Source: Trebonia sp.
Lineage (GTDB): Bacteria; Actinomycetota; Actinomycetes; Streptosporangiales; Streptosporangiaceae
DNA: 17,331 nt
Assembly (NCBI GenBank): GCA_030038035.1
Contig: JASHPP010000266.1
Span: 1 to 17,331 of the forward strand
Direction of reading: 5' to 3'
The notes under the pieces: generated by a model
Database searches by the model: none
The model's input: only the letters and a program-made list of their open reading frames with translations
What the model was told of the DNA's origin: nothing
Shown here: piece after piece, positions 2,508-16,879 of the stretch
How the letters are laid out: each line of letters begins with the position of its first letter
Numbering within the stretch: position 1 is the stretch's first letter
Made by a program: the position numbers and the translations under genes

Positions 2508-3881
2508 ATGAGGGACACGATCCACTCGGTGGATACCAGCACACCAGCCGTTGTGCTGAAGTTCGATCCGAACGTTATGCACCATGGCGGGCTTGGCGTG
2601 ATCAGGAGCCTGGGCCGCATCGGCGTCCCGGTCTACGGGGTGCACGAGGACCCGCTGGCTCCAGCCGCCGGCTCGAGGTACCTGCAGGGCCGCTTCTTCT
2701 GGCGTCCCAGTCCCGACGATGTCGACCGGGTGCTTGACGGGCTGACGCGCCTCGCGGCGATCATCGGCCGCCAGGCCGTCCTGATCACCACGGACGACGC
2801 GGGCGCGCTCTTCCTCGCCGAGCACGGTGGCGCCCTGCGGGAGCGGTTCCTGTTCCCGGATCCCCCGCCAGACCTGCCGCGGCGGCTGGCCGGCAAGTAC
2901 TCGCTGCACGAGATCTGCGACGAACTCGGCGTCGCCTCGCCGCGCACTGCCCTGCCCGGGTCGCGCGCCGAGGCGCGGGACTTCGCCCAAGCGGCCGGGT
3001 ACCCGGTAATCGCCAAGCTGACCGCGCCCTGGAACGCATCCAAGGGCCTGCGCAGCACCCAGGTGGTCGCGGACGAAGACGAACTCGGCCGGGTCTACGA
3101 GAACTGCGCGCACGCCGACGCAGGCCTCATGCTGCAGGAGTTCATCCCCGGCGGCCAGGGCCATGACTGGTTCTTCCACGGCTACTGCGACGCCGCCGCC
3201 GACTGCCGGCCCGCTTTCACCGGCGTTAAGGAGCGGTCCTACCCGGTCGGCGCCGGCCTGACAAGCCGCGGCAGGGCGATCGCGAACGACGCCCTCCGGG
3301 GCGAGGTTACCTCGCTGCTCGCCCGGCTTGGCTACCGCGGGCTGCTCGACCTGGACATCCGGCTGGACGACCGGGACGGCCGCTACCATCTGCTGGACTT
3401 CAACCCGCGGCTGGGCGCGCAGTTCCGGCTGTTCCGCGACACCGCGGGCACCGACGTGGCGCTGGCTGCCTATCTCGACCTGACCGGCCAGCCGATCCCC
3501 GAAGCCACCCAGGTGGACGGCCGCTGCTTCGTGGTCGAGAACTACGACCCGATCAGCGCGCTCGCGCAGTGGCGGGCCGGCGAACTTGGCCTGCGGCCCT
3601 GGCTGGCCTCGCTGCGCACCGCCGATGAGTGGGCATGGTTCGCGCGGGATGACCTGCGGCCGTTCGGGCTCATGTGCGTGCGCATGGGCTGGCGCTCGGT
3701 CACCCGCCGGTTCACCGGCCACCGGGTGCACTCCGCTCGCGACGGCTTCCGTTACCGGCCGGGCCGCCTTGCCGCCCACGGGGGAAACTCCGCGCCCGCG
3801 ACTGCGGGGCGAGCCGCCCCGCGCCTGGACAGCGCGTCCCCATGTCCCCAGACCCAGACCCAGACCACTGCACAGCCTTGA
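2508..3881 (+). CDS. ATP-grasp family carboxylate-amine/thiol ligase
   Basis: The product (457 residues) is an ATP-grasp protein, a family that joins a carboxylate to an amine or thiol through an acyl-phosphate. An N-terminal pre-grasp region (residues about 15-120) is followed by the ATP-binding fold: YPVIAKLT with Lys170, MLQEFIPGG, and the metal-binding DLDIRLD...DFNPRLG segment around Asp297-Arg301. ATG at 2508 is preferred over GTG at 2478 because GGAGGGG ends 10 bases before it. The last ~50 residues are low-complexity and include three CAG-ACC hexamers (3849-3866) giving QTQTQT. It is the first gene of the exopolysaccharide operon, 61 bases before the flavoprotein gene. Substrate is unknown; attaching an amino acid or other acyl group to an amino sugar or precursor is possible but is inference. 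Confidence 0.82.
   Translation: MRDTIHSVDTSTPAVVLKFDPNVMHHGGLGVIRSLGRIGVPVYGVHEDPLAPAAGSRYLQGRFFWRPSPDDVDRVLDGLTRLAAIIGRQAVLITTDDAGALFLAEHGGALRERFLFPDPPPDLPRRLAGKYSLHEICDELGVASPRTALPGSRAEARDFAQAAGYPVIAKLTAPWNASKGLRSTQVVADEDELGRVYENCAHADAGLMLQEFIPGGQGHDWFFHGYCDAAADCRPAFTGVKERSYPVGAGLTSRGRAIANDALRGEVTSLLARLGYRGLLDLDIRLDDRDGRYHLLDFNPRLGAQFRLFRDTAGTDVALAAYLDLTGQPIPEATQVDGRCFVVENYDPISALAQWRAGELGLRPWLASLRTADEWAWFARDDLRPFGLMCVRMGWRSVTRRFTGHRVHSARDGFRYRPGRLAAHGGNSAPATAGRAAPRLDSASPCPQTQTQTTAQP
3849..3866 (+). repeat. CAGACC hexanucleotide repeat, three copies
   Basis: Three perfect tandem CAGACC units lie inside the 3' end of the ATP-grasp gene and encode Gln-Thr dipeptides. The same CAG-plus-three pattern recurs, much longer and in another reading frame, at 14443-14511 in the second spherulin-4 gene. 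Confidence 0.75.
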
Positions 3882-3942
3882 CCGGCACGGCAGACTAGCG
3901 CCCCGCTGAACCAATGCAACTTCACCAAGGAGGAACCCGATC

Positions 3943-5169
3943 ATGACCGATGCCGTCGACGTGGCCGTTATCGGAGCAGGCCCGTACGGCCTCTCACTGG
4001 CCGCACACCTGAGCGCGGCCGGCGTCGGCTACCGTCAGTTTGGCATGCCGATGCGACTGTGGCGCGACGCCATGCCGAAGGGCATGTACCTCAAGTCACA
4101 GGGCTTCGCTTCCAATCTGTCAGATCCCGGTGCGGCCCGCACGCTCGAGGCCTTCTGCGCGGCGACGGGGCGCTCCTACGCCAGCTACGGCCTGCCGGTC
4201 CCGCTGGACACGTTCGTGGCCTACGGCCAGTGGTTCCGGTCCGAGCTCGGCCTTGCGGTAGAGGAAGCGCTGGTCACCAATGTCGCCAGGGAAGACGGCG
4301 GCTTCCGGCTGACCGTCGACGGCAGCGCCGACGTCTCCGCCCGCGCGGTCGTGGTCGCGGTCGGCGTCGAGCACTTCGCTTACGTGCCGGAGTTCCTCTC
4401 CGGGCTGCCCGAGGGGCTGTGCACGCACAGCTCCGCGCACACGGACCTCTCGGCCTTCCGCGGCCAGCAGGTCATCGTCATCGGCGCCGGCCAGTCGGCG
4501 CTGGAATCGGCGGCGCTGCTGCACGAAAGCGGCGCCGACGTAACGGTGCTGGCGCGGGAGCCGCGGCTGGCCTGGAACGGGAATCCGCTGCCGCCGGACC
4601 GCCCGCTGCCGCAACGGATACGGGAGCCGGAATCCGGGCTCGGTTCTGGCTGGAGCAGCTGGTTCTACTCCAACCACCCCCAGGCGTTCAGGCACCTGCC
4701 GCGGAACACCCGGGTGTACCGGGCGCGGACGGCCCTTGGACCGGCCGGTGCCTGCTGGCTCCGCAGCCGGGTGGAGGGGCAGTTCACCGTGCTGACCGGA
4801 CATGCCGTCACCTCGGTGGAACCGCAGGGCAGCCGGGTCCGGCTAGAGGTCACGTCCGGAGGAACCAGCAAGGAGCTGACCGCCGACCACATCATCGCCG
4901 GCACCGGCTACCGGGCCAACCTGAGCAGGATGCGCTTCCTGAGCGCAGAGATCCAGTCCGCGCTGCGCGGCGTCGCCGGGACCCCGGTCGTCGGACCGGG
5001 CTATGAGTCCTCCGTGCACGGGCTCTACTTCATCGGCCCGCTGGTGGCGCCCACCATGGGGCCCGTCATGCGGTTCGTCTACGGTTCGCGCCACGCCGCG
5101 ACGACGGTGGGCCGGCAGCTGGCTGGTGCAGGGTATCGCGTGAAGCCCCCCGTTCCGGCGGGACGATGA
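3943..5169 (+). CDS. FAD/NAD(P)-dependent oxidoreductase (flavin monooxygenase-like)
   Basis: The 408-residue product has an N-terminal FAD-binding Rossmann motif (VIGAGPYG, residues about 9-16) and a second dinucleotide motif in mid-protein (VIVIGAGQSALE, about residues 177-188) for NAD(P)H. It also has a late ATG-like motif (AGTGYRANL) before the closing FAD-contact segment. This arrangement fits the class B flavin monooxygenase / N-hydroxylase superfamily rather than a simple reductase. An excellent ribosome binding site, AAGGAGGAA at 3927-3935, sits 7 bases before the ATG. The stop overlaps the next ATG (ATGA). Its place between the ATP-grasp gene and the sugar transferase suggests it oxidises a building block of the polymer or of a decoration on it. 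Substrate cannot be assigned from sequence. Confidence 0.82.
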   Translation: MTDAVDVAVIGAGPYGLSLAAHLSAAGVGYRQFGMPMRLWRDAMPKGMYLKSQGFASNLSDPGAARTLEAFCAATGRSYASYGLPVPLDTFVAYGQWFRSELGLAVEEALVTNVAREDGGFRLTVDGSADVSARAVVVAVGVEHFAYVPEFLSGLPEGLCTHSSAHTDLSAFRGQQVIVIGAGQSALESAALLHESGADVTVLAREPRLAWNGNPLPPDRPLPQRIREPESGLGSGWSSWFYSNHPQAFRHLPRNTRVYRARTALGPAGACWLRSRVEGQFTVLTGHAVTSVEPQGSRVRLEVTSGGTSKELTADHIIAGTGYRANLSRMRFLSAEIQSALRGVAGTPVVGPGYESSVHGLYFIGPLVAPTMGPVMRFVYGSRHAATTVGRQLAGAGYRVKPPVPAGR

Positions 5170-6644
5170 TGGCAGACCACCTGATCTCGGGCCGCCGGGC
5201 GCTCGATACCCGGCGGCCGGGGAGCCAGGGGGCCGGGGGCCCGGCCGTGGCGCGCGGCGGGCGGCTGGCCCGGCTGGCCGCGCTGCCTGCCGCCGACGCT
5301 ACCGGTCTGGTAGCGGCATGCGTGGTCAGCGGTGCGGTCGGCAAGCCGCTTGCCTGTACGGTCTACGCCACGGCCGTGATCTCCATCCTCGCCGCGGGCG
5401 GGCAGCACCGGCTGCGCATCTGCCTGCGGGCCTCGGACCAGGCTGGCCAGATCCTGGCGGCGGCGGCACTGCCGCTGCCAGTGCTGCTGGCCTGGCTGCC
5501 GGAACGGAGGCTGCTGGTACTCGGGATCTGCTCGGCGGGGCTCGTGCTCGGCTGCCGGGTCGCGGCCACTGCCGCGCTGCGCGCGGTGCACCGCCGTGGC
5601 CTGCTGGCAGAGCCGGCGGTCGTCGTCGGTGCCGGAACCTTCGGCGCTTACGTCGCCGAGCTCATGGAAACGCACCAGGAACTCGGCCTGTGGCCCGCCG
5701 GGTTCGTCGACGACGGGCCGCCGCGCCGCGACCTGCCTGTGCCAACGCTCGGCACTTTGTCCGAGCTTGCCGAGGTGGTGCAGGCGCACGGCATCGGCCG
5801 GGTCATCGTGTGCTTCTCAAGCAACTGCCGCGACGAAGACATGGTGGCGCTGCTGCGGGCCAGCTCGCCGCTCGGAGCCGACGTGTGCGTGGCGCCTAGG
5901 CTCTACGAGCTGGGCATGGCGGTGCCGCGCGGCTCCCTGGACGAGATCTGGGGTGTGCCTCTCATCCCCCTGCGGCGGCGGCCGCGGGTCCGGCTGGCGG
6001 CCAAGCGCGCGTTCGATCTCTTCGTCGGACTCGTGCTCGGCATTGCCGTCACGCCCGTGGTCCTCGCCCTGGCGGTCGCCGTCCGGCTGCGCTCCGGTCC
6101 CCCGGTCCTGTTCCGGCAGGACCGGGTGACCGGCGAGGGCCGGGTAGCACAGGTCGTGAAGCTCCGGACGCTTGAGGTGCACGGCGACCCGGACACCCGC
6201 TGGGAGGTGCCAGGGGAGCTGTGCAGACCGCTCGGCCGGTGGCTGCGGGCCACTCACCTCGATGAGCTGCCACAGCTGGCGAACGTGGTGCGCGGCGACA
6301 TGTCGCTGGTCGGTCCGCGGCCCGAGCGGCCGTACTTCGCGCAGCGCTTCCGGCACGAGGTTCCGCGGTACGCCGACCGGACCCGGATGCCCGCCGGGCT
6401 TACCGGCTGGGCGCAGGTGCACGGCCTCACCGGCGACACGTCGCTCGCGGAGCGGGTGCGGTTCGACAACTACTACATCGAGTACTGGTCACCGTGGCTG
6501 GACGCGGTGATCCTGGCGCGGACCGCGGCCGGAGTCGTGCGCGCCGCCCTCCCCTCCCGGCCGGCGCGGGCCCGGGCGCCCCGGGCGCCCCGGCGGTCCA
6601 GGGGGCGGACGGCGCCCACGGTAACCGTGAGAGCGTGGCCATGA
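5166..6644 (+). CDS. Polyprenyl-phosphate sugar-1-phosphate transferase (WcaJ/WbaP-type)
   Basis: This membrane enzyme (492 residues) should transfer a sugar-1-phosphate from a nucleotide sugar to undecaprenyl- or decaprenyl-phosphate, starting repeat-unit assembly on the inner face of the membrane. N-terminal hydrophobic segments occupy about residues 35-140, fewer and weaker than the usual four helices. A CoA-binding/Rossmann-like region follows (about 155-260). The catalytic bacterial sugar transferase domain begins at KRAFD (Lys280), with a membrane hairpin at about 285-307. It contains the catalytic THLDELPQL (Asp366-Glu367), GDMSLVGPRP and GLTGWAQVHG motifs. A basic Arg/Pro-rich tail ends the protein. 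The gene overlaps both neighbours by four bases (ATGA at 5166 and at 6641), so it is co-translated with the flavoprotein and the deacetylase. Confidence 0.9.
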   Translation: MMADHLISGRRALDTRRPGSQGAGGPAVARGGRLARLAALPAADATGLVAACVVSGAVGKPLACTVYATAVISILAAGGQHRLRICLRASDQAGQILAAAALPLPVLLAWLPERRLLVLGICSAGLVLGCRVAATAALRAVHRRGLLAEPAVVVGAGTFGAYVAELMETHQELGLWPAGFVDDGPPRRDLPVPTLGTLSELAEVVQAHGIGRVIVCFSSNCRDEDMVALLRASSPLGADVCVAPRLYELGMAVPRGSLDEIWGVPLIPLRRRPRVRLAAKRAFDLFVGLVLGIAVTPVVLALAVAVRLRSGPPVLFRQDRVTGEGRVAQVVKLRTLEVHGDPDTRWEVPGELCRPLGRWLRATHLDELPQLANVVRGDMSLVGPRPERPYFAQRFRHEVPRYADRTRMPAGLTGWAQVHGLTGDTSLAERVRFDNYYIEYWSPWLDAVILARTAAGVVRAALPSRPARARAPRAPRRSRGRTAPTVTVRAWP

Positions 6645-7408
6645 GAGCCGCACCGAACGGCCAGGGGCGTATTCCCCTAAGCTCCGTGCCACTGATCCTG
6701 ATGTACCACGCCGTGGACCGGGTGAGCCACGATCCGAACATGCTGTGCGTCTCACCGGAGCGGTTCGCCGCGCAGATGTCCTGGCTGCGGCGGCACAAAC
6801 TGCGCGGCGTGGCGGTGGGGACGCTGGTGACCGCCATGCGCGCGGGCCGGGCCCGCGGGCTTGTCGGCATCACGTTCGACGACGGCTACGCGAGCGTGCT
6901 AGAGCATGCTGCCCCCGTGCTGCTCCGCCACGGCTTCACCGCGACCGTCTTCGTCATCTCGGACAAGGCCGGGGGAAACAACGACTGGGACGACGGCACG
7001 CTCTGGCCGCTCCTGACCTGGTCTCAGGTCGGCGAACTGGCCGCCGCGGGTATGGAGATCGGTTCGCACAGCGCCACTCACATGCGGCTGGCGGGCGCGG
7101 ACCATGGGCGGCTGGCAGCCGAGGTCGGCGGCAGCCGGGACAGCCTGCACAAGCAGACCGAGGCCGAAGTCCGCGGCTTCGCATACCCCTTCGGGTCCAT
7201 GGATGCCGCGGCCAGGCAGGCTGTGCGCGACGCGGGCTACGAGTACGCGTGCGCCGTCGAGGCGCCGCGGCTGACCGACCTCGGCATGCTGGCGCTGCCG
7301 CGCATCTACGTCGGCGAGCGCGACACGTCCAGCCGGATGACGGCCAAGCGACTGCTCTACCGGGGCTACGTCGCGATGCAGGGCAGGCGCCGGGATTCAT
7401 GGCAATGA
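6641..7408 (+). CDS. NodB-type polysaccharide deacetylase (CE4)
   Basis: The 255-residue product should remove N-acetyl (or O-acetyl) groups from a sugar chain. The CE4 signature is complete. Motif 1 is ITFDDGY with Asp80 (base) and Asp81 (metal), and motif 2 is GSHSATH with His143 and His147 (metal ligands). Motif 3 is RGFAYPFG at about 178-185. ATG at 6641 is chosen because it overlaps the sugar transferase stop as ATGA; the frame is open further upstream but that stretch lies inside the previous gene. No signal peptide or membrane segment is visible, so it would act in the cytoplasm on a nucleotide- or lipid-linked intermediate, unlike PelA or PgaB, which act outside. The stop overlaps the start of a 14-codon mini-ORF. 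Confidence 0.9.
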   Translation: MRAAPNGQGRIPLSSVPLILMYHAVDRVSHDPNMLCVSPERFAAQMSWLRRHKLRGVAVGTLVTAMRAGRARGLVGITFDDGYASVLEHAAPVLLRHGFTATVFVISDKAGGNNDWDDGTLWPLLTWSQVGELAAAGMEIGSHSATHMRLAGADHGRLAAEVGGSRDSLHKQTEAEVRGFAYPFGSMDAAARQAVRDAGYEYACAVEAPRLTDLGMLALPRIYVGERDTSSRMTAKRLLYRGYVAMQGRRRDSWQ

Positions 7409-7449
7409 AGGGGGACACAGCAATGAAAGTGAGGGCAAGGCAGTCATGA
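7405..7449 (+). CDS. 14-codon mini-ORF bridging deacetylase and glycosyltransferase
   Basis: ATG at 7405 overlaps the deacetylase TGA (7406-7408) and its own TGA (7447-7449) overlaps the ATG of the next glycosyltransferase (7446). Both junctions are therefore ATGA. The peptide would be MKGDTAMKVRARQS. It exactly spans the only gap between two otherwise tightly packed genes, which suggests a translational bridge that lets ribosomes pass from one gene to the next. A functional peptide is not indicated, and chance has not been excluded. Confidence 0.35.
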   Translation: MKGDTAMKVRARQS

Positions 7450-8552
7450 AGGTGCTGCACGTGATAACCGGGCTGGACGCCGGGGGCGCCGAGACTCAGC
7501 TGGCCATGCTGCTGCGGCACACCAGGCACGACTCCGACGTCGTCACGCTCTATAACCCGGGCCCGATCGCCGAGCAGATCCGGGCGCAGGGCACTTCAGT
7601 GCGCGACATCGGGATGCGGCGCAACACCGACCTGACGGCCCTGCCGAGGCTGAGCTCGCTGATCAGGGCCGGGCGGTACGACGTGGTGCACGCCCACCTC
7701 TACCGGTCGCAGATCTACGCCCGCCCGGCCGCGCGGCTGGCCCGGACGCCGGTGGTGGTCACGACCGAGCATTCGATCGGCGAAACGCACATCGAGCGGA
7801 GGAAGATGACCTCCGGGGTACGGGGGCTCTACCTCGCCTCGGAGTTTTTCTCCGACGGCACGATCGCTGTGTCCGACGTCGTCCGGGATCGCCTCGTCAA
7901 GTGGGGTGTCCCGGCGCGGAAGATCACGGTGATCCCGAACGGGGTGGACACCGCCGCGTTCGCCTTCGACCCGGAGGCGCGCACCCGCGCCCGTGAGCAG
8001 TTCGGCATCCGGCCGGACACGTACGTGATCGGGACGCTGGGCCGGCTGGACTCGAACAAGCGCGTCGACATGCTGATCGAGGCCGTGAAGCCGCTGCTCG
8101 GCGAGCGGTGCGTGCTGCTTGTGGTCGGCCGTGGCGGGGAGATGGACAACCTGAAGGAACACGCGGCGAGGGCCGGGGCCGGCGACCGGGTCATCTTCGC
8201 GGGGTTCCAGGCCGACACCGTCGCGATGCTGTCCGCCTTCGACCTGTACGTCATGGCATCCCGCCAGGAGACGTTCGGGCTCGCGGCGATCGAGGCCATG
8301 GCCAGCGGGCTGCCCGTGCTGTACACCACGTGCCCGGCGTTGGACGGGATCGAGACCGAGCAGGCACGACAGGTGGAGGGGACCCCCGAGGCGCTGCGCG
8401 CGGCTCTTAGCGCAGCGGTGGCCGCCGGGCCGCGGGTGCGCAAGGCCGACAGCGCGGTGACTGACCGCTATAGCATCAGCGCTACCGCACAGCGCGTCGA
8501 CGATCTCTACGAGCGGCTGCGGAAGCCCTCGGGACGGGGTGCCGTGGCTTGA
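7446..8552 (+). CDS. GT4 family glycosyltransferase
   Basis: The 368-residue product is a GT-B fold retaining glycosyltransferase of family GT4. The N-terminal acceptor half opens with the typical HVITGLDAGGAETQL loop (residues about 5-19) and includes DVVHAHLYRS. The C-terminal donor half has VIPNGVD, GTLGRLDSNKRVDMLIEA and the EX7E donor motif in RQETFGLAAIEAM (Glu275 and Glu283). Donor and acceptor sugars cannot be read from sequence. There are only weak purine-rich bases before the ATG, so translation probably depends on coupling through the 7405-7449 mini-ORF. The next gene begins one base after the stop. Confidence 0.9.
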   Translation: MKVLHVITGLDAGGAETQLAMLLRHTRHDSDVVTLYNPGPIAEQIRAQGTSVRDIGMRRNTDLTALPRLSSLIRAGRYDVVHAHLYRSQIYARPAARLARTPVVVTTEHSIGETHIERRKMTSGVRGLYLASEFFSDGTIAVSDVVRDRLVKWGVPARKITVIPNGVDTAAFAFDPEARTRAREQFGIRPDTYVIGTLGRLDSNKRVDMLIEAVKPLLGERCVLLVVGRGGEMDNLKEHAARAGAGDRVIFAGFQADTVAMLSAFDLYVMASRQETFGLAAIEAMASGLPVLYTTCPALDGIETEQARQVEGTPEALRAALSAAVAAGPRVRKADSAVTDRYSISATAQRVDDLYERLRKPSGRGAVA

Positions 8553-8553
8553 C

Positions 8554-10377
8554 ATGAAGGTGGCGCTCACTGCGGAGGGCACCTACCCACACCAGTTCGG
8601 CGGCGTCAGCGTGTGGTTCGACCAGCTCATCAGGGGGCTCCCCGGCTACGAGTTCACAGTCGTGGCGCTGGTCGCCACGGGAGCAGAGCCGGTGCAGTGG
8701 GAGCTGCCTGCTAACGTCTCACGGCTGGTGACGATCCCGCTGTGGGGTTCCCCCCCGCCATTGCGGCCGCGGGCCCGCCTTCGGGGCGCGTGGCCTGCCA
8801 GGCATCCGCCGCTTCCGGTACGCGACCTGATCGACGTGCTGCTGGCGCCGCAGGCTGTGGCGCGGATCCGGTTCACCGCCGTGATGCGGGAACTGTTCGG
8901 CTACGCGCAGGCCGAGAGCCTGTTCGCTGCGCTGTCCAGCGAGGCGGCGGCGCGGCTGCTGTGCGACCAGTGGCGGGAGCGATGGCCGCAGCTGGCGGTG
9001 AACCACGGGGTGCAGTCGCCTTCCGTGCTGCCGTCCCTGGGTGACGCGGTCACCCTGCTCCAGCTGATCGAGCACGCGCTGCGGCCGCTGTCCCACCCGC
9101 CTGTGCAGGCGGACCTGGTGCACGCGGTGACCAACGGCCTGGGCGTGCTGCCGGCCGTGGCTGCCAAGTGGCGGTACGGGACGCCACTGGTCGTCACAGA
9201 GCACGGCGTCTATATGCGCGAGCAGTACCTGCACCTGCGCCGCCCGCCGTTCGGGTGGCCGGTCAAGGACCTGCTGCTGCGCTTCCTTGGCCAGGTCTGC
9301 GCGCTGGGCTACCGGGAGGCCGAAGTGATCACCCCGGGCAACATCTACAACAAGCGCTGGGAAGAACGCCTCGGCGCGGACGGCACACGGATCCGCACGG
9401 TCTACAACGGCGTGAACCCGCAGGTCTTCCCCGCGCTGACCACCGAGCCTGAGGTGCCCACGATCTCCTGGCTCGGCCGGATAGACCCGATCAAGGACCT
9501 GGAGACCCTGCTGCGCGCGTTCGCCCTGGTCGTTGAGGAGATGCCGGAGGCCAGGCTGCGGATATTCGGGTCACCGCCGCGCGGCCGCGACGCGTACCTT
9601 GAGCGCTGCCGGGCGCTGGCCGCCGACCTCGGGATCGACGACCGGGCCACATTCGAAGGCAGGGTGGCACAGGTCCGGGAGGCCTACGCGGCCGGGCAGG
9701 TCGTGGCGCTCTGCAGCATCAGCGAGGGCTTTCCTTACTCGCTCATCGAGGCGATGGCCTGCGGGCGGGCGTGCGTGGCCACCGACGTCGGCGGCGTGGG
9801 CGAGGCGCTCGGCGACTCCGCCGGCCTCATCGTCCCGCCGCGTAACCCGAAGGCGCTCGCGGACGCGTGCCTGCGGCTGCTCCGCGACGCCGAGCTGCGC
9901 AAGAAGCTCGGCAGCGCCGCCCGGCAGCGCGCGCTCGAGCACTTCACCGTGGACCGGGCGGTCGCCAGGTTCAACGAGATCTACAGCTACTTCGGCACCG
10001 GGCGCCAGGTCGTCACTGCGAACGCCGATACGGTGCCGTTCCCCAAGGTCGGCCACGTGGCCAAGGCCGTGGAGGCCGTCGCCGCCGCGGAGACGGTGCC
10101 GTTCCCCAAGATCGGCCACACGCCCATCGATGCGGGCCTGAGCGTGACTAAGGAGAACCCGGTGGCGGAGGCGCACCCCGCCAGGAACGCGGGCCTGAGC
10201 GTGACCAAGGAGAACCCGGTGGCGGAGGCGCACCCCGCCAGGAACGCGGGCCTGAGCGTGACCAAGGAGAACCCGGTGGCAGAGCCGCACCCCGCCAGGA
10301 ACGCGGGCCTGAGCGTGACCAAGGAGAACCCGGTCGTGGAGGCGCACGCCGCCGAGCCCTCGGAAGTCTCGTCATGA
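8554..10377 (+). CDS. pelF: PelF-type GT4 glycosyltransferase with C-terminal repeat tail
   Basis: The 607-residue product begins with the DUF3492-type N-terminal region typical of PelF (MKVALTAEGTYPHQFGGVS) and continues with a GT4 donor domain. This includes TVYNGVNP, SWLGRIDPIKDLETLL and the EX7E motif in SEGFPYSLIEAM (Glu391, Glu399). In Pseudomonas, PelF is the cytosolic UDP-GlcNAc/GalNAc-using synthase of the Pel polysaccharide and is about 507 residues long. Here the catalytic part ends near residue 485 and about 120 extra residues follow: two copies of a TVPFPK(V/I)GH motif and four copies of a 19-residue repeat. ATG at 8554 is preferred over GTG at 8539 because family members begin exactly there. 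The stop overlaps the next ATG by four bases. Family assignment is strong; the sugar used is inferred. Confidence 0.9.
   Translation: MKVALTAEGTYPHQFGGVSVWFDQLIRGLPGYEFTVVALVATGAEPVQWELPANVSRLVTIPLWGSPPPLRPRARLRGAWPARHPPLPVRDLIDVLLAPQAVARIRFTAVMRELFGYAQAESLFAALSSEAAARLLCDQWRERWPQLAVNHGVQSPSVLPSLGDAVTLLQLIEHALRPLSHPPVQADLVHAVTNGLGVLPAVAAKWRYGTPLVVTEHGVYMREQYLHLRRPPFGWPVKDLLLRFLGQVCALGYREAEVITPGNIYNKRWEERLGADGTRIRTVYNGVNPQVFPALTTEPEVPTISWLGRIDPIKDLETLLRAFALVVEEMPEARLRIFGSPPRGRDAYLERCRALAADLGIDDRATFEGRVAQVREAYAAGQVVALCSISEGFPYSLIEAMACGRACVATDVGGVGEALGDSAGLIVPPRNPKALADACLRLLRDAELRKKLGSAARQRALEHFTVDRAVARFNEIYSYFGTGRQVVTANADTVPFPKVGHVAKAVEAVAAAETVPFPKIGHTPIDAGLSVTKENPVAEAHPARNAGLSVTKENPVAEAHPARNAGLSVTKENPVAEPHPARNAGLSVTKENPVVEAHAAEPSEVSS
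10030..10119 (+). repeat. Two copies of a 27-base unit encoding TVPFPK(V/I)GH
   Basis: Copies at 10030-10056 and 10093-10119 differ at a single base (GTC/ATC) and are 63 bases apart, in the same reading frame. They lie at the start of the PelF tail, immediately after the catalytic domain. The near-identity at DNA level suggests a recent duplication. Confidence 0.75.
10132..10353 (+). repeat. 57-bp tandem repeat, 3.9 copies, coding a 19-residue unit
   Basis: Units begin at 10132, 10189, 10246 and 10303. The first three are complete and differ by only a few bases; the fourth diverges in its last five codons. Each unit encodes AGLSVTKENPVAEAHPARN or a close variant and keeps the reading frame, forming most of the C-terminal tail of the PelF-type protein. 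Such near-identical units are prone to gain or loss by slippage or recombination, so copy number probably varies between strains. Confidence 0.92.
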
Positions 10378-11753
10378 CCCAGCTAGCCGGAATCAGCGCG
10401 GCGGAGTGGGACGAGCTCTGCGCGCGGTTCGCCACGGTCTGCGAGTCCGCCGTGGATCCGTTCGAGGTCGCAAGCGCGCTGGAATTTGAGGGAGTCAGCG
10501 ACCGGACCGCAACCGCCGAGTACGGCCTGGAGGACGTGTTCGCGCTGGCACGCGTGCTGTACGAGGAGATACCGCGGCAGCCTGCCGTGCCTGAGCCTGT
10601 GCCGGATCCGTGGCCGCACGGTCCGCTCCGGCTGATGCTGCACGGCCTGCTCTACGCCCTGCCGGCGGTCTGCTTTCCCGCGGCAGGAGGGCTGCTCGCC
10701 GGGCCAGGCGTGCTGCCTACCCTGGTGGTGGCGCTGCTGACCGGCTGGGGGCTGAGCCAGGGACTGGCCGCCATCGGCTACCACCGGCTGGGCACGGCCG
10801 GGCGGGGCCAGGCCCAGCGCGTGCTGCGCGCGGGCCTTGTGACGGGGCTGGCCACCGTGGGACTCGTGATGGCGGTGACCGGGCACATCACCGGCGGGCA
10901 CCCGGCCGTCCTCTGCTTCGGCGCCGGGGAAGGAGCCTACATGCTCGGCGCGTGCGTGCTCCTGGTGACCGGGACGGAGTTGTGGCTGCTGGTGGCGCTG
11001 GCTCCCGGGGTGGCAGGTGCCGCGGTGTTCCTGCTTTCCGGCAGGCCGCCGGGCCTTGAGCACCTGACCTGGGCGGCGCTGGCCGCCACGCCGGTGCTCG
11101 CGTGCGTGATCGCGCTGTCCGGCCGCACCGGGCCCGGGCCCGTGGCCGGGCGGCTGCTGGTGGCGGCCGAACTCGGCGGTGCCGTGCCCGCGTTCCTGCT
11201 TGGCGTGGTCGCGGCCGGGCTGCTCACGTTCCCTGTCGTGGCGGGCCCGGCCGGGCACGGCGGAGTCAACCTCGGTGCGCTGGTCGCGTCGATCCCGCTC
11301 GCGCTGAGCATGGGCGTGGCGGAGTGGAGCCTGCTGTGGTACCGGCGGCGTACCCGGTACCTGCTCGGGGTGACCAACAACCCGCGCTGGTTCCGCAGGC
11401 AGGCCCACCTGTCGCTGCTCGGTGCCCTGCTGCAGTACCTGTCGGGCACGGTGGTGCTAGTCTGCCTGGCGATCGGCGTCGCGATCGAGACGGGCCTGCT
11501 GCGGCCGCGGCATGAGATGATGCCGGAGATCGCCGCGTACCTGGTGCTCGGTGCCGCGATGTTCCTCGTGCTGCTGCTGCAGGCGGTGCGGGTCCGCGCC
11601 GTGCCGCTCGCCGCGGCGGCCGCGGCGCTGGGCGCGGAGGTAGCGCTGCGCCAGCACGGGCTGGCCGTGCAGCTCGCGGTGCCCGTGGCACTGCTTTTCG
11701 TGGTGGGCAGCTACGGCCTGGCCTGCCTCGGGGCGGCCGTGCGGCATGCCTAG
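10374..11753 (+). CDS. Polytopic membrane protein, candidate PelG-like exporter
   Basis: The 459-residue product has a soluble, acidic N-terminal domain of about 75 residues. It contains a DPFEVASALEFEGVSDRTA segment and YGLEDVFALARVLYEEIP. About twelve hydrophobic segments follow from residue ~82 to the end, with a basic loop WYRRRTRYLLG...NNPRWFRRQ before the last four. No family motif allows a firm name. Its length, segment number and position immediately after pelF (ATGA overlap at 10374) match PelG, the MOP-superfamily membrane partner of PelF, but PelG has no such N-terminal domain and I cannot show homology by eye. A flippase or polymer translocation role is inference. There are 42 bases before the next gene. 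Confidence 0.7.
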   Translation: MTQLAGISAAEWDELCARFATVCESAVDPFEVASALEFEGVSDRTATAEYGLEDVFALARVLYEEIPRQPAVPEPVPDPWPHGPLRLMLHGLLYALPAVCFPAAGGLLAGPGVLPTLVVALLTGWGLSQGLAAIGYHRLGTAGRGQAQRVLRAGLVTGLATVGLVMAVTGHITGGHPAVLCFGAGEGAYMLGACVLLVTGTELWLLVALAPGVAGAAVFLLSGRPPGLEHLTWAALAATPVLACVIALSGRTGPGPVAGRLLVAAELGGAVPAFLLGVVAAGLLTFPVVAGPAGHGGVNLGALVASIPLALSMGVAEWSLLWYRRRTRYLLGVTNNPRWFRRQAHLSLLGALLQYLSGTVVLVCLAIGVAIETGLLRPRHEMMPEIAAYLVLGAAMFLVLLLQAVRVRAVPLAAAAAALGAEVALRQHGLAVQLAVPVALLFVVGSYGLACLGAAVRHA

Positions 11754-11795
11754 CTGCTTCCGTTTGAAACCTCGTCCGAAGTTATAGGAGGAAGA

Positions 11796-12794
11796 ATGAC
11801 GCAAACCACCGTCGCGGTCACCGGGGCCGAGGGGTTCATCGGCTCGCACCTGACCGAGGAGCTGGTGCGGCGCGGATTCCGGGTCAAGGCCATGGCGCTT
11901 TACAACATGTGGAGCTCGGCCGGCTGGCTTGAGACGCTGGCGCCCGACGTCCGGGAGTCGGTCGAGGTGGTGTTCGGCGACGTGCGGGACCCGGCGTCGG
12001 CCCGCGAACTGGTCGACGGCGCGGAGGTCGTCTACCACCTTGCCGCCATCGGTTCTGTGCCCTACTCGTACCGGGCGCCGCGCACCTTCGTTGACAACAA
12101 CTCGATCGGCACCCTGCACGTGCTCGAGGCGGTGCGCGCCTGCCGCACCCCGCGGCTGGTGCACACGTCGACCAGCGAGACCTACGGGACCGCCCGCACC
12201 GTGCCGATCAGCGAGGAGCACCCGCTGCAGGCGCAGTCGCCGTACGCCGCATCGAAGATTGCCGCCGACAAGCTGGTGGAGTCCTACTACCTGAGCTTCG
12301 GCCTGCCCGCGGTGACGCTGCGCCCCTTCAACACGTTCGGCCCGCGCCAGTCCACCCGGGCCGTCATCCCGCAGATCATCACCCAGCTGGCGGCCCGCCC
12401 CGCGCAGATCAAGCTGGGCGCGCTGGCACCGACCAGGGACTTCAGCTATGTCACCGACACCGCGGCGGCGTTCGTGTCCGTGGGCACGGCGCCGGCTTCG
12501 GCGGTGCTTGGCGAGGTGTTCAACTGCGGGCCAGGGGAGGACGTCTCGATCGGGGACCTCGCGGCGGAGATCGCGGCGCTCATGGACGTCCAGGCCGACA
12601 TCGTCGAGGACGCGCAGCGGATGCGCCCCAAGGAGTCCGAGGTGATGCGGCTGGTCTGCGACGCCGCCAAGCTCAGCGCCCGGACCGGCTGGAAGCCCCA
12701 GGTATCGAGGGAGGAGGGGCTGCGCCAGACGATCGACTGGTTCCTCGACCCGGCGAACCTGGAGCGGTACACGCTCAACGAATACCACGTGTGA
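11796..12794 (+). CDS. NAD-dependent sugar-nucleotide 4,6-dehydratase, LegB-like SDR
   Basis: The 332-residue product is an extended short-chain dehydrogenase/reductase. It has the NAD motif TGAEGFIGSH (residues about 9-18), HTSTSETYG and the catalytic YAASK (Tyr150, Lys154). The overall pattern closely follows LegB-type NDP-GlcNAc 4,6-dehydratases of legionaminic acid pathways. Examples are the LYN...S.GWLE segment after the first strand, PYSYRAP, RPFNTFGPRQS.RAVIP, LG.L.PTRDF.YVTDT and the ending TIDWFLDPANLERY. Such enzymes make 6-deoxy-4-keto amino-sugar nucleotides. No NeuB- or aminotransferase-like gene is present, so the product probably feeds a deoxyamino sugar of this polymer rather than a sialic-acid-like sugar. 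A strong AGGAGGAAG at 11786-11794 precedes the start. Confidence 0.88.
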   Translation: MTQTTVAVTGAEGFIGSHLTEELVRRGFRVKAMALYNMWSSAGWLETLAPDVRESVEVVFGDVRDPASARELVDGAEVVYHLAAIGSVPYSYRAPRTFVDNNSIGTLHVLEAVRACRTPRLVHTSTSETYGTARTVPISEEHPLQAQSPYAASKIAADKLVESYYLSFGLPAVTLRPFNTFGPRQSTRAVIPQIITQLAARPAQIKLGALAPTRDFSYVTDTAAAFVSVGTAPASAVLGEVFNCGPGEDVSIGDLAAEIAALMDVQADIVEDAQRMRPKESEVMRLVCDAAKLSARTGWKPQVSREEGLRQTIDWFLDPANLERYTLNEYHV

Positions 12795-12798
12795 ACCG

Positions 12799-13704
12799 AT
12801 GCGGATCCTGATCATCGGTGCGAGCAGTTTCCTCGGCGGCCACGTAAGACGCGAGGCCGCGAGCGCGGGCCACACGGTGCTGACCGCGGGTCGCTCGGCG
12901 CTCCCCGGGCAGCACCTGCGGCTGGACCTCGTGGCGGATCCCGTCGCGCAGGTCGCTTCGCTGGTGGCGTCCGCCGCGCCCGAGGTGGTCGTCAACTGTG
13001 CCGGGGCGACCAGCGGCAGCGCGGACGCACTCGCGGCCGCGAACATCACCGCGGTGCACACGCTGGTCACGGCCTTGCTCCAGAGCCGCGCCCGCGTTCC
13101 GGCCCGGCTTGTGCACGTCGGATCGGCCGCCGAGTACGGGGCGGCCGAGGATGGCGTGCCGGTGGCCGAGACGGCCGTCCCCCGGCCGGCCGGCCTGTAC
13201 GGTGTCACCAAGCTCGGCGGCACCCGGCTGGTCGAACTGGCCCGTACGGCAGGGCTGGACGCCGTGGTGCTGCGGGTGTTCAACGTGGTCGGGGCCGGGG
13301 CGCCGGAAGACAGCCTGCCCGGACACGCCGCCGCGCAACTGCGGCGGCTGCTGGCAGCGGCCAACGGCACGAGCCTGCGGCTGGGCCCGCTGCACTCGGT
13401 TCGCGACTTCGTGGACGCCCGCGATGTCGCCGACGCGGCGCTTGCCGCGGCGGCGGCGCCGTCCCTGCCGCACGCGGTCGTCAACGTCGGCAGCGGCACC
13501 GGCGTCCCGGCCCGGGTCCTGGTCCAGGAGCTGCTCGCGGCCAGCGGATGCGATGTCCAGGTGCGCGAGGACGCCCCCGGATCAGCGCGCACGGCCGGCC
13601 TCGACTGGCAGCAGGCCGACATCACGAGGGCGGCCGAAGACCTGGGCTGGCGGCCGCGCCGGGACCTGGCCGCGGCTGTCCGGGATCTGTGGAATGGAGC
13701 CTGA
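12799..13704 (+). CDS. NAD-dependent epimerase/dehydratase family protein (SDR)
   Basis: This 301-residue extended SDR has an N-terminal GASSFLGGH dinucleotide motif (residues about 7-15), VGSAAEYG in the catalytic strand region and YGVTK (Tyr134, Lys138). A C-terminal substrate domain contains VRDFVDARDVADA and LGWRPRRDL. It would act on a nucleotide sugar. Its place four bases after the LegB-like gene suggests it reduces or epimerises the 4-keto product of that enzyme, but specificity (4-epimerase, 4-reductase or other) cannot be told. The stop TGA shares one base with the ATG of the first spherulin-4 gene. Confidence 0.86.
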   Translation: MRILIIGASSFLGGHVRREAASAGHTVLTAGRSALPGQHLRLDLVADPVAQVASLVASAAPEVVVNCAGATSGSADALAAANITAVHTLVTALLQSRARVPARLVHVGSAAEYGAAEDGVPVAETAVPRPAGLYGVTKLGGTRLVELARTAGLDAVVLRVFNVVGAGAPEDSLPGHAAAQLRRLLAAANGTSLRLGPLHSVRDFVDARDVADAALAAAAAPSLPHAVVNVGSGTGVPARVLVQELLAASGCDVQVREDAPGSARTAGLDWQQADITRAAEDLGWRPRRDLAAAVRDLWNGA

Positions 13705-14432
13705 TGTCTGCCCCGGACGGCCAGGCGGTTCCCGTCCGGCCTCGCCTGGTCGTCCCGGCATACTTTCATCCTGGCCTGCAGCCCCAGCAGTGGCAGTGGC
13801 TGGCCGAGCACCCGTCGCGGGTGTGGCTGGTCATCCTCAACGTCGCGAGCGGGCCGGGAACCAGGCCGCAGCGGGCGTTCCGGGAGGCAGCGGACCTGCT
13901 GCGCCGCGCGGGCGTGGGCGTGATCGGGTACATCGACACCGACTACGGGCATGTTCCCATGCCCCAGGCGATGGCTGAGGCCGGCCGCTACCAGGACTGG
14001 TACGGCGTGCGCGGAATGTGCCTCGACCGGGTCGCCGCCGGTCCGGAGCAGGTCAGGTACTACGCGGAGCTGGCGGCCCGGATCCGGGCGGAGGACCTGG
14101 ACGTCGTGTTCTTCAACCACGGCACGCACCCGGCCGAGGCCTATGCCCGGCACGCGGACCTGCTCGGCACCTTCGAGGGGCCGTGGCCCGCCTACCAGCG
14201 GCTGCACATGCCGCGCTGGACGCAGCGGTGGGCGCCGGAGAAGTTCTACCACGTGGTGCACTCCGTCCCGGTGGACAAGCTCGCCGACGCCCGGCAGCTG
14301 GCGGTGAGCCGCCGCGCGGCGTCCGTGTACATCACAGAACGAAGCGGGCCGAACCCGTACGATGCCCTGCCGGCCGACTACGGCGTCGGCGACGGCAGGC
14401 CAGGGGGTCGGCACCGGAAGGAGCTGACATGA
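13704..14432 (+). CDS. Spherulin-4 family protein, soluble form
   Basis: The 242-residue product belongs to the spherulation-specific family 4 group, related to GH135 (fungal Sph3) and the GH114-like domain of PelA, which cleave galactosamine-containing polymers. Visible family features are LVVPAYFHPG at the N-terminal first strand, GVGVIGYIDTDYG, RGMCLDRVAAGP with Asp108, FFNHGTHP, and LGTFEGPW with Glu158. At the position where fungal enzymes have an Asp-Glu pair, this protein has Asp108-Arg109. ATG at 13704 overlaps the upstream stop; the longer open frame from 13548 runs inside the SDR gene. No signal peptide is visible, so it appears cytoplasmic, unless export is non-classical. The stop overlaps the start of its paralogue (ATGA). 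Confidence 0.85.
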   Translation: MSAPDGQAVPVRPRLVVPAYFHPGLQPQQWQWLAEHPSRVWLVILNVASGPGTRPQRAFREAADLLRRAGVGVIGYIDTDYGHVPMPQAMAEAGRYQDWYGVRGMCLDRVAAGPEQVRYYAELAARIRAEDLDVVFFNHGTHPAEAYARHADLLGTFEGPWPAYQRLHMPRWTQRWAPEKFYHVVHSVPVDKLADARQLAVSRRAASVYITERSGPNPYDALPADYGVGDGRPGGRHRKELT

Positions 14433-15355
14433 GCGCGCCTGCCAGACGCAGACACAGATCCAGGCACAGGTACAGGTACAGGTACAACAGGTACAGATAC
14501 AGGTACAGATACCGGCGCGGCCTGGGCGCTGGCCCCGTCCGGACCACGACGCTGGCGGTCACCGCGCTGGCCGGAGTGCTGGCGGTGGCGGGAGTGGTGA
14601 TCGGCGTCACCGTTACCGGGGGGAGCGGGCCGGTGGCCACCACCACGCCGGCCACCGGCACGGACGGCCTCTGCGAGCACCTCAACGTGCCGGCCTACTT
14701 CGCACCGGGATACTGGACCGAGGCGACCCGCAGCACGCCGCCGCCCGCGGACATGATCCTTGACATTACGGGCGCGGGCGCCGGGACCGCGCCCAACCCT
14801 GAGTTCCAGGCCCTGGTCAGCCAGGCGAAGGCCGCGGGGATCACGATCCTCGGCTACTCCTCCACCGAGGACGGGCAGCGCCCGATCGCGCAGGTCGAAG
14901 CCGACGTGCGCGACTACGCGGCCTGGTACGGGGTGACCAGCATCTTCCTGGACCGTGTCTCGGGACAGCCGCAGCAGATCTCCTACTACAAGCAGCTCGC
15001 GGACTACATCCACCGGACCAATCCCGGCTCGCAGGTCTGGCTCAACCCCGGCGACTATCCCGACCAGGCGTACATGTCAATCGGTAACGTGGTGATGGTG
15101 TTCGAGGGCACGTACGCCCAGTACCTCACGGCCGACGTGCCCGGCTGGGCACGGGACTATCCCGCCTCGAAGTTCGCGCACACAATCTTCGCCACGCCAG
15201 GAGCGGACCTGGCGAACGCCCTCAGGCTCGCCCACAGCAGGGATGCCGGGTACGTGTACGTGACCGACGGCACCGGCTCGAACCCTTACCAGGCGCTGCC
15301 CAGCTACTGGTCGGCCGAGGACACGTCGGCGACAGCGGCCTGCCAGCCGGGATGA
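14429..15355 (+). CDS. Spherulin-4 family protein, membrane-anchored form with RY-repeat N-terminus
   Basis: The 308-residue product has three parts. A highly basic cytoplasmic head (residues 1-38) includes Arg-Tyr dipeptides at about 14-29. A transmembrane segment at about 41-63 probably acts as a signal anchor or signal peptide. The outer part is a spherulin-4 domain from about residue 78. Family marks are LNVPAYFAPGYW, GITILGYSST, IFLDRVSGQP with Asp175-Arg176, WLNPGDYP and VMVFEGTY with Glu226. It is a paralogue of the preceding gene and shares the Arg in place of the second acid. GGAAGGAG at 14416-14423, 5 bases before the ATG, fixes the start; the frame open from 14018 lies within the upstream gene. 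Eleven of the first 27 codons are AGG or AGA arginine codons, rare in such GC-rich genomes. Likely acts at the outer membrane face on the polymer. Confidence 0.85.
   Translation: MSAPARRRHRSRHRYRYRYNRYRYRYRYRRGLGAGPVRTTTLAVTALAGVLAVAGVVIGVTVTGGSGPVATTTPATGTDGLCEHLNVPAYFAPGYWTEATRSTPPPADMILDITGAGAGTAPNPEFQALVSQAKAAGITILGYSSTEDGQRPIAQVEADVRDYAAWYGVTSIFLDRVSGQPQQISYYKQLADYIHRTNPGSQVWLNPGDYPDQAYMSIGNVVMVFEGTYAQYLTADVPGWARDYPASKFAHTIFATPGADLANALRLAHSRDAGYVYVTDGTGSNPYQALPSYWSAEDTSATAACQPG
14443..14512 (+). repeat. CAG-based hexanucleotide repeat encoding Arg-Tyr
   Basis: Eleven hexamers of the form CAG followed by three bases run from 14443 to 14511, interrupted once by CAA at 14485-14487. The first four vary (CAGACG, CAGACA, CAGATC, CAGGCA); the rest alternate CAGGTA and CAGATA. 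Read in the gene frame they give basic dipeptides, then Arg-Tyr repeats. This is a microsatellite-like tract within the start of the anchored spherulin-4 gene. Confidence 0.9.
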
Positions 15356-16503
15356 GCCGCCGCCAACCGGTGCGCGTGGCAACCGTCATCACCCGGCTGG
15401 AGGGTGGTGCCGGGATCCTCGCGCTGCGCGGCGCTCGCGCGCTCGACCGCGGCGAGTTCGCTGCGACGATCGTGACCGGCAGCGGAGACCGCCTGCTTGA
15501 CGAGGCCGCGGCGGCAGGCCTTGAGGTTCGCATCGAGCCGGTCTTGCGGCGGCCAATCGACCCGCGCGGCGACCTGCGGGCGTTCCGCGCGCTGTCCGCG
15601 CTGTTCGCGCAGCAGAACTTCGACGTGGTGCACACGCACACGTCGAAGGCGGGCGTGCTCGGGCGGATCGCCGCCCGGCGCGCGGGAGTACCGCGGATCG
15701 TGCACACCTACCACGGCTTCCCCTTCCATGAGTTCCAGTCACGCGCGCAGCGAGGCGCGTATGTCGCGATCGAGCGGCGGCTCGGCCGCATCACCGACGT
15801 GGTGCTCTGCGTCGGGACCGGTGTGGCGGTCGAGGCGGTCCGCCGCGGGCTAGCCGCCCCCCAGCGGATCCGGACGATCGGCGTGGCCGTGGACGGCGGG
15901 CAACCCCGCACCACGGAAGCCCGCGACAAGGCACGGCAGGCGCTGGGCATCCCGGCCGGCGCCGCCGTGGTCGGCGCGGTCGGACGGCTCACTTACCAGA
16001 AGGCGCCCGAGGACTTCATCGCCGCGCTGCGCCAGCTCGGCCGGCCGGACGTGGTCGGCGTCTGGGTCGGCGGCGGCGAGCTCGCCGGGCGGATCGGCCA
16101 GCTGGCAGCACGGGCCGGGCGGCCAGGCTCGCCGCCCGCTCCGCGGGTCGTGCTGGCAGGCGAGCGGACAGACATCCCTGACATCCTGCCCGCCTTCGAC
16201 GTCTTCGCGCTGCCCAGCCGCTACGAGGGCCTGCCCACTTCTGTGGTCGAGGCCATGAGGTGCGAGGTCCCCGTGGTGGCCACCGCGGTGAACGCCGTCG
16301 GCGACGTGGTCATACCCGGGGAAACCGGCTTGCTGGTACCCCCGCGGCGTCCCGACCTGCTGGCCGCGGCGATCGGGTACCTGCTGGACCGGCCGGCCGT
16401 CGCGGCGCGGATGGCCGCCACCGCCCGCGCCGGGATCGACGGCCGGTTCAGCACGGCGGAGCTGCTGGCAACGCTGACCGAGGCCTACACGGGCGGCCGG
16501 TGA
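15352..16503 (+). CDS. GT4 family glycosyltransferase
   Basis: The 383-residue product is a GT-B glycosyltransferase of family GT4. N-terminal half: VATVITRLEGGAG (residues about 9-21), DVVHTHTSKAGVLGRIAARRAGVP and VHTYHGFPFHEF, a pattern common in exopolysaccharide and capsule enzymes. C-terminal half: GAVGRLTYQKAPEDFIAAL and the EX7E donor motif in SRYEGLPTSVVEAM (Glu292, Glu300), then VIPGETGLLVPP. The start overlaps the spherulin-4 stop as ATGA, so it is the last gene of the operon. Sugar specificity is not readable. Confidence 0.9.
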   Translation: MSRRQPVRVATVITRLEGGAGILALRGARALDRGEFAATIVTGSGDRLLDEAAAAGLEVRIEPVLRRPIDPRGDLRAFRALSALFAQQNFDVVHTHTSKAGVLGRIAARRAGVPRIVHTYHGFPFHEFQSRAQRGAYVAIERRLGRITDVVLCVGTGVAVEAVRRGLAAPQRIRTIGVAVDGGQPRTTEARDKARQALGIPAGAAVVGAVGRLTYQKAPEDFIAALRQLGRPDVVGVWVGGGELAGRIGQLAARAGRPGSPPAPRVVLAGERTDIPDILPAFDVFALPSRYEGLPTSVVEAMRCEVPVVATAVNAVGDVVIPGETGLLVPPRRPDLLAAAIGYLLDRPAVAARMAATARAGIDGRFSTAELLATLTEAYTGGR

Positions 16504-16596: not shown

Positions 16597-16879
16597 GTGA
16601 AATCCGCGCGGGATGCCGAATTCACCGACTATGTCAAGGCGCGCCTGCCCTGGCTGCGCCGCGTGGCGTACCTGCTGTGCCAGGACTGGCAGGGCGCTGA
16701 CGACCTCGCGCAGGCGGCGATCACCCGGCTACACGCACTGGGGCCGGGCCAGGAACGCCGTCAGCGTCGACGCGCCGCTGCCGGGCAGCGCGGAACTGGG
16801 CGGGGTGCTCGGAGTGCTCGCGCGGACCCAATTCCTCGGCACGAATCCGGCCGCGTGGACGACCGCGCCGCTGGGCTAG
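16597..16879 (+). pseudogene. Frameshifted, truncated SigE-family sigma factor remnant
   Basis: From GTG at 16597 the frame encodes a good sigma-70 region 2 of the actinobacterial SigE ECF-like group: DAEFTDYVKARLPWLRRVAYLLC followed by ADDLAQAAITRL. Near 16725-16735 homology leaves this frame. The expected continuation (YTHWGRARNAVSVDA, compare the usual YVHWHRAR..NVDAYVR) is found in the next plus frame and ends at TAG 16877-16879. A two-base deletion or one-base insertion would explain it. After NAVSVDA nothing resembles regions 3 or 4, so the DNA-recognition domain is lost as well. The original frame continues to 16893 with Arg-rich nonsense. It is most likely a decayed gene; a sequencing error alone would not restore region 4. 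Confidence 0.7.

Follow-up and report, generated by a model that had tools for sequence, protein, structure and literature searches.

Which product, or products, would be made by an operon that sets a PelF-type glycosyltransferase behind genes of a lipid-primed exopolysaccharide (EPS) pathway? This question is raised by a 17,331-nucleotide stretch of DNA from Trebonia sp. (contig JASHPP010000266.1, hereafter the window), in which positions 2508–16503 hold 12 co-directional genes on the plus strand, all running from ATG to a stop codon (Table 1). The 11 junctions between them comprise six overlaps of 1–4 bp and five gaps of 1, 4, 37, 42 and 61 bp, in agreement with a first-pass annotation of this DNA, which had described an apparently continuous operon. 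The parts named there, i.e., PelF, a CE4 deacetylase, two spherulin-4 proteins, two SDR enzymes, a WcaJ-type enzyme and two further GT4 enzymes, were all recovered in profile searches. Its proposal of a hybrid design also held in neighbourhood comparison, where the operon has the appearance of two modules joined together, and kinship with galactosaminogalactan (GAG) and Pel systems was supported by an Agd3-like gene upstream of pelF in relatives and by a match of the first spherulin-4 protein (Sph4a) to fungal Sph3. We consider it somewhat more probable than its opposite that this is an operon for an extracellular or cell-surface polysaccharide that arose by the joining of two ancestral modules, one akin to GAG-type clusters and the other to lipid-primed EPS clusters. 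The gene order of the window recurs in three other loci (L002–L004; proteins 51–84% identical), and chance is therefore not a credible explanation for it.

Two modules that occur joined and apart

Module 1 was defined as the genes for the ATP-grasp protein, FAD oxidoreductase, WcaJ-type enzyme, CE4 and GT4a, and module 2, as found in relatives, as those for an Agd3/CE18-like deacetylase, PelF, the membrane protein MemX, SDR1, an NTP-transferase, SDR2 and spherulin-4. A PelF scan of genome contigs gave 11 loci, ten of them actinobacterial (PelF 56–73% identical) and one (L010) from Saccharibacteria with a partial PelF match (32%). Seven of the ten actinobacterial loci (L001–L006, L011) carried genes of module 1 upstream of pelF and in the same orientation. 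ATP-grasp relatives were present in L003–L006 and L011, each with an adjoining FAD oxidoreductase; L001 and L002 begin within WcaJ at a contig end, where these two genes cannot show. GT4a adjoins PelF in the window and L001–L004, and in L005, L006 and L011 the Agd3-like gene separates the two modules, which are adjacent and in the same orientation. The window branch (five loci) had no Agd3-like gene, NTP-transferase or module-1 Wzx/Wzy in the stretch and carried a membrane-anchored second spherulin-4. A GT4b-like match upstream in L005, L006 and L011 was 35–36% identical and may represent a different gene.

Each module was also found alone. Module 2 occurred without module 1 in the stretch examined in L007–L009, L045–L058 and all 30 newly fetched loci; in the latter, some of whose stretches stop at contig ends, no WcaJ, GT4a or ATP-grasp gene was present. 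Conversely, eight genomes of a 396-genome phylum sample had CE4, GT4a and ATP-grasp genes together (ATP-grasp 41–44% identical to that of the window), away from the PelF-MemX loci that all eight also possess, an association confounded by descent in that these genomes (7–10 Mb) may be close kin. The separate module-1 loci contained Wzx in all eight cases (MurJ family by Pfam, as checked in L150), Wzy_C in seven (the eighth stretch begins inside Wzx), FAD oxidoreductase in six and a WcaJ-type gene at the edge of three stretches. These Wzx and Wzy proteins had no tblastn match in the window (best E 0.15) or in L001–L006 and L011. Module 2, with PelF and spherulin-4 together, is a recurrent actinobacterial operon of GAG type.

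The eight joined rows of a 31-row PelF tree made up one side of a branch supported at 96/99. They came from Treboniaceae and Streptosporangiaceae (both Streptosporangiales), from Pseudonocardiaceae (Pseudonocardiales) and from one unplaced actinomycete. One row flagged as long (L057) fell outside the joined clade; this locus also had a second PelF-like match (28%) adjoining pelF at 11599–12906. The simplest reading would be a single joining, after which the operon of the window branch lost the genes for the Agd3-like protein and the NTP-transferase and gained Sph4b, a direction of change that we infer.

Distribution in actinobacteria

DUF3492 matches were found in 28 of the 396 phylum genomes, 26 of them above the cut-off. 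Thirteen of these 26 PelF-bearing genomes had MemX, an unnamed membrane protein that thereby presents a concrete target, five had PelG adjoining PelF, and eight had neither by these searches; a 14th MemX match (G193), interrupted by a stop and lacking any PelF match, was dropped. PelG scored above the cut-off in seven of the 396 genomes, i.e., the five PelF-adjacent cases, G376 (located at the edge of a contig and lacking a PelF match) and G378, whose partial match (30.9 bits against a cut-off of 29) lies on a different contig from its PelF. In the 13 MemX genomes PelG never exceeded the cut-off, and the same was true of 14 genomes with the cluster, two of which gave weak partial matches. On closer look G378, counted above among the eight, had a weak MemX match adjoining its PelF and is thus a possible exception to this separation of MemX from PelG. 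PelF was located in the flank of MemX in 20 of the 21 loci L022–L042 (the exception being the G193 locus) and in 29 of the 30 new loci, where MemX was preceded by the Agd3-like gene and PelF; the remaining new locus (L190) begins at a contig end.

ATP-grasp matches occurred in 132 of the 396 genomes, and the strong ones (E below 1e-55) were followed. G004 and eight more genomes had module 1 in the sense of an ATP-grasp gene close to those for CE4 and GT4a, and all of them also carried PelF-MemX. Five other genomes with a strong match had no GT4a in the fetched stretch, and four of the 13 MemX genomes (G116, G137, G213 and G303) had no ATP-grasp match. Matches were obtained in 19 of the 180 genomes of the order to which G004 belongs, eight of them weak and partial; among the other 11 only G004 was joined. 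Within the family of G006, 27 matches were found in 23 of 170 genomes, and the 24 examined (20 newly fetched loci and four from an earlier set, with three left out) were joined only at the main locus of G006. The joined arrangement looks rare.

Two further forms of the locus were observed. L178–L183, L194–L203, L056 and L157 had a distant Agd3-like protein (22–27%), PelF, MemX, NTP-transferase and SDR2, with no Sph4a behind SDR2; some of them had a weak Sph4b-like match nearby. L049, L053, L054 and L058 represent another PelF-MemX type with a shorter MemX (272–385 residues as called).

PelF, MemX and the deacetylases

MemX has a conserved N-terminal region of approximately 85 residues followed by 10 hydrophobic segments, and its sequence in the window is 100% identical to a database protein from Trebonia sp. 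(order Streptosporangiales). A PDB profile search with MemX gave no match, and HHalign comparisons with PelG, Wzx and Wzy profiles gave nothing; the control pair PelG-Wzx, which we expected to share the MOP fold, failed as well, so this null result is no evidence against kinship of MemX with these families. PelG (PF16933) had no match among the window proteins. In line with the first-pass annotation, no PelA fusion was found among the 12 products, nor a domain suggestive of PelD or PelE, by general profile searches that included no dedicated PelD/PelE model. The EX7E motif is a feature of GT4 enzymes, the class to which PelF belongs. At the 3′ end of pelF (10132–10353), a 57-bp unit is repeated 3.9 times with 95% matching and encodes a 19-residue repeat tail at the PelF C-terminus.

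Family CE18 was founded on Agd3, which deacetylates GAG in Aspergillus. CE4 had been viewed as the equivalent of PelA or Agd3 in the window. A simple hydropathy scan revealed no hydrophobic export segment in CE4, which makes it a poor stand-in for these enzymes, and its relatives lie in module 1. The possibility that CE4 replaced the Agd3-like enzyme was weakened by Amycolatopsis and Lentzea loci that contain both.

The Agd3/CE18-like gene is located immediately upstream of pelF in L005–L009, L011 and 29 of the 30 new loci; in Amycolatopsis, Lentzea, Kutzneria and Crossiella it is a gene for a secreted-looking protein of approximately 680 residues that directly precedes pelF. Single sequences scored below the Pfam cut-offs (Agd3_CE for L005, E 5.8e-5; CBM87 for L008, E 2.5e-5; neither for L006), and a PDB search with one such protein found nothing. 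A profile of 26 Agd3-like proteins, on the other hand, matched the Agd3 structure 6nwz (E 6.6e-9), with most of the match in the first 240 residues, and PF25115 or PF25116 was assigned to several homologues among 120 listed. The window had no such gene by tblastn with the L005 protein (best E 2). An Agd3-like match was present in six of nine genomes searched and in none of the metagenome bins G001–G003; the sole copy of G004 had no pelF within 18 kb.

Spherulin-4 proteins

Sph4a matched the fungal Sph3 structures 5d6t and 5c5g (E about 1e-5), with the aligned Asp and Glu retained; the Glu that follows this Asp in Sph3 is Arg in Sph4a of the window. In PMC12054363, this group of families is described as using Asp as nucleophile and Glu as acid/base. 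The aligned residues of Sph4a may correspond to this catalytic pair. Among 20 aligned rows, the Glu was lost in four (L049, L053, L054 and L058) and the Asp also in L049. By hydropathy scan, none of the 20 Sph4a rows had a strongly hydrophobic N-terminal segment (highest mean 1.54, in L003), and Sph4b of the window and L001–L004 had a hydrophobic segment near the start. The N-terminus of Sph4b is rich in Arg and Tyr, residues that are encoded there by short repeats at 14461–14512. No Ega3/GH114 domain was reported among the 12 products in profile searches.

Nucleotide-sugar enzymes

A motif scan of 20 loci proved strict and uneven, recovering the CE4 pattern in two, the PelF pattern in one (the window) and the Agd3 pattern in four, and comparisons across loci drew solely on its SDR1 and SDR2 patterns, each found in 18. 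The SDR1 signature TSTSETYG...YxxxK was present in 18 of the 20 loci, the remaining two being module-1 loci without SDR1. We take its T-S-E to be of dehydratase type, as in Gmd. The nearest relatives of SDR1 were LegB 4,6-dehydratases, under the cut-off of that model. The two top solved relatives of SDR2 were GDP-6-deoxyhexose reductases (6x3b, a GDP-6-deoxy-D-mannose reductase, E 1.1e-18; 2pk3, E 6.2e-15), followed by mixed epimerases; its score against the GalE model (E 7.3e-20) was far under the model cut-off. For the NTP-transferase of relatives, the nearest NCBIfam model was mannose-1-phosphate guanylyltransferase, with none above cut-off, and the nearest solved structures were a UTP-glucose-1-phosphate uridylyltransferase and mannose-1-phosphate guanylyltransferases.

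Consequently, the two SDRs look like a 4,6-dehydratase and a 4-ketoreductase rather than an N-acetylgalactosamine (GalNAc) epimerase. Their earlier assignment as GalNAc-type enzymes fared poorly, with epimerases also among the matches, and a role as UDP-GalNAc suppliers was rejected as first choice on the signatures. Together with the NTP-transferase, SDR1 and SDR2 point to a 6-deoxy sugar; GalNAc supplied by housekeeping enzymes would also be compatible.

A possible pathway and its alternatives

If the two modules work together, the WcaJ-type enzyme would load a sugar phosphate on a polyprenyl carrier, and GT4a and GT4b would extend the carrier-linked sugar. CE4, acting in the cytoplasm, could expose an amino group on a precursor or on a lipid-linked sugar, which may then be altered by the ATP-grasp and FAD enzymes. 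SDR1 and SDR2 would make a 6-deoxy(-amino) nucleotide sugar, PelF would polymerise, MemX would move the chain across the membrane, and the anchored Sph4b may trim the exported chain. A bolder form of this scheme, to which we give a small chance, is that the lipid-primed EPS pathway lost Wzx/Wzy and was re-plumbed onto PelF-MemX, a machine of synthase type that would elongate and export a chain started on polyprenyl. If true, this would represent a further mode of polysaccharide assembly, and MemX a new exporter family.

Several observations weigh against the joined-module interpretation. A single operon does not prove a single product. Wzy_C-family genes were found elsewhere in five of seven joined genomes searched (G003, G004, G005, G006 and G009), and unlinked Wzx/Wzy could serve module 1. 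Searches of the seven genomes with the module-1 Wzy and Wzx gave no match in any of them for either protein; they had no positive control and left even MurJ unmatched, and were given no weight. Three terminator-like sites, two of them overlapping, are located at the end of memX, within a region whose total is near chance expectation (6 sites against 3.5, sd 2.0). In L001, from another Trebonia, Sph4b directly follows MemX, and the stretch shows no SDR1, SDR2 or Sph4a. Two independent products of one transcript, a WcaJ-primed glycan dependent on unlinked Wzx/Wzy and a PelF/MemX polymer, are a serious possibility, albeit one we would not bet on; the Wzy_C genes found elsewhere and the occurrence of the modules apart in eight genomes speak for it. 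However, the joined arrangement is kept across Streptosporangiales and Pseudonocardiales loci, and in the window and L002–L004 module 2 is followed by GT4b and thus has glycosyltransferase genes on both sides; both suggest shared work.

The nature of the product may also differ from that proposed. A cationic Pel/GAG-like polymer of the kind inferred in the first-pass annotation, with poly-GalNAc formed by PelF, deacetylated by CE4 and trimmed by spherulin-4, would fit the PelF family, the GH135 match and the Agd3/CE18-like gene adjoining pelF in relatives, but appears unlikely given the missing export segment and module-1 affinity of CE4, the lack of an Agd3-like tblastn match in the window and the resemblance of SDR1/SDR2 to a dehydratase and a reductase more than to an epimerase of the Uge3 type. 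A glycolipid, secondary cell-wall polymer or glycoprotein glycan instead of a free matrix polysaccharide could account for WcaJ priming, the ATP-grasp and FAD enzymes and the absence of linked Wzx/Wzy. We regard it as rather improbable, as the kinship of the operon with loci of PelF, MemX, spherulin-4 and Agd3 points to an exported polymer, and the fungal GAG cluster and the Bacillus pel operon make matrix polymers according to the available texts of PMC4817252 and PMC7112168.

Comparison with known systems

Putative bacterial operons with agd3-like genes, a glycosyltransferase, a multi-spanning membrane protein and often a GH114 gene are described in the available text of Bamford et al. 2020 (PMC7229062), some of those in Actinobacteria also carrying spherulin-4. 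The window shares with these the cytoplasmic glycosyltransferase, the multi-spanning membrane protein, spherulin-4 and a predicted GAG/Pel-like product; in contrast, its products include no agd3-like or GH114 protein, and it adds WcaJ, CE4, two GT4 enzymes, ATP-grasp, FAD oxidoreductase and a second spherulin-4. The general kind of operon is thus already known as a prediction, and the window is a putative variant joined to a lipid-primed EPS module. No published description of the joined arrangement was found in a search that mostly did not extend to subscription literature.

The Aspergillus GAG cluster (gtb3, agd3, ega3, sph3, uge3) has a glycosyltransferase, a GH135-type protein and an SDR in common with the window, and an Agd3-like gene in common with sister loci, whereas the window lacks Agd3-like and Ega3-like genes and its SDR1 carries the dehydratase signature. 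The pelDEADAFG locus of Bacillus cereus, as presented in the available text of PMC7112168, likewise has PelF followed by a multi-spanning membrane protein and a deacetylase in the locus; the window differs in having no PelG match or sign of PelD/PelE, with MemX in the place of PelG, in a CE4 without export segment and in a lipid-priming enzyme. The Wzx/Wzy-type EPS clusters L144–L146 and L148–L152 share CE4, GT4a and ATP-grasp relatives (FAD oxidoreductase in 6/8), but in the joined operon Wzx and Wzy are missing and PelF and MemX come after GT4a. PelF-MemX cores with and without the lipid-primed module, and with and without the Agd3-like gene, offer a natural comparison that bears on the start, export and modification of PelF-type polymers in actinobacteria without recognisable PelG.

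Gene inventory and surroundings

The window includes a polyprenyl-phosphate primer enzyme of the type found in Wzx/Wzy-dependent EPS pathways (PF02397, TIGR03025); the narrower TIGR03023 (WcaJ) model scored below its own cut-off.

Table 1. Genes of the operon at 2508–16503, with the profile or structural matches of their products
Gene product	Coordinates	Strand	Module	Evidence and remarks
ATP-grasp (carbamoyl-phosphate-synthase-like)	2508..3881	+	1	PF02786 E 2.5e-4, 21.1 bits (cut-off 19.8)
FAD/NAD(P)-dependent oxidoreductase	3943..5169	+	1	PF13738 E 1.5e-22
WcaJ-type polyprenyl-phosphate glycosylphosphotransferase	5166..6644	+	1	PF02397 E 2.4e-50; TIGR03025 299.2 bits (cut-off 295.55)
CE4 polysaccharide deacetylase, without predicted export segment	6641..7408	+	1	PF01522 E 3.1e-26; TFDDG and HSATH motifs
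GT4a, GT4 glycosyltransferase	7446..8552	+	1	PF13439 E 5.2e-28; PF00534 E 3.6e-27
PelF-family GT4 (DUF3492)	8554..10377	+	2, core	PF11997 E 1.7e-44; NF038011 164 bits (cut-off 100)
MemX, ~10 predicted transmembrane segments	10374..11753	+		no Pfam/NCBIfam match; candidate exporter, candidate PelF partner
SDR1, LegB-like, probable NDP-sugar 4,6-dehydratase	11796..12794	+		TIGR04180 419 bits (below cut-off 475); TSTSETYG...YAASK
SDR2, probable NDP-4-keto-6-deoxysugar reductase or epimerase	12799..13704	+		best solved relatives 6x3b, 2pk3
Sph4a, spherulin-4/GH135-like, without export signal	13704..14432	+		PF12138 E 3.4e-33; ATG overlaps SDR2 stop
Sph4b, spherulin-4/GH135-like, one hydrophobic anchor	14429..15355	+		PF12138 E 2.3e-32; anchor residues 42–60
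GT4b, GT4 glycosyltransferase	15352..16503	+		PF00534 E 1.4e-28; also operon-terminal in L002, L003, L004

A promoter scan of this region of the window detected none, and an Rfam search gave no match. Downstream of the operon, a short open reading frame (16597–16893) presumably resembles a truncated sigma factor start, and the neighbouring stretch contained a stop. On the other side, a divergent gene (587–2020, minus strand) has a secreted-looking product in which four stretches match Big_3_5, a bacterial Ig-like domain (E 1.9e-42).

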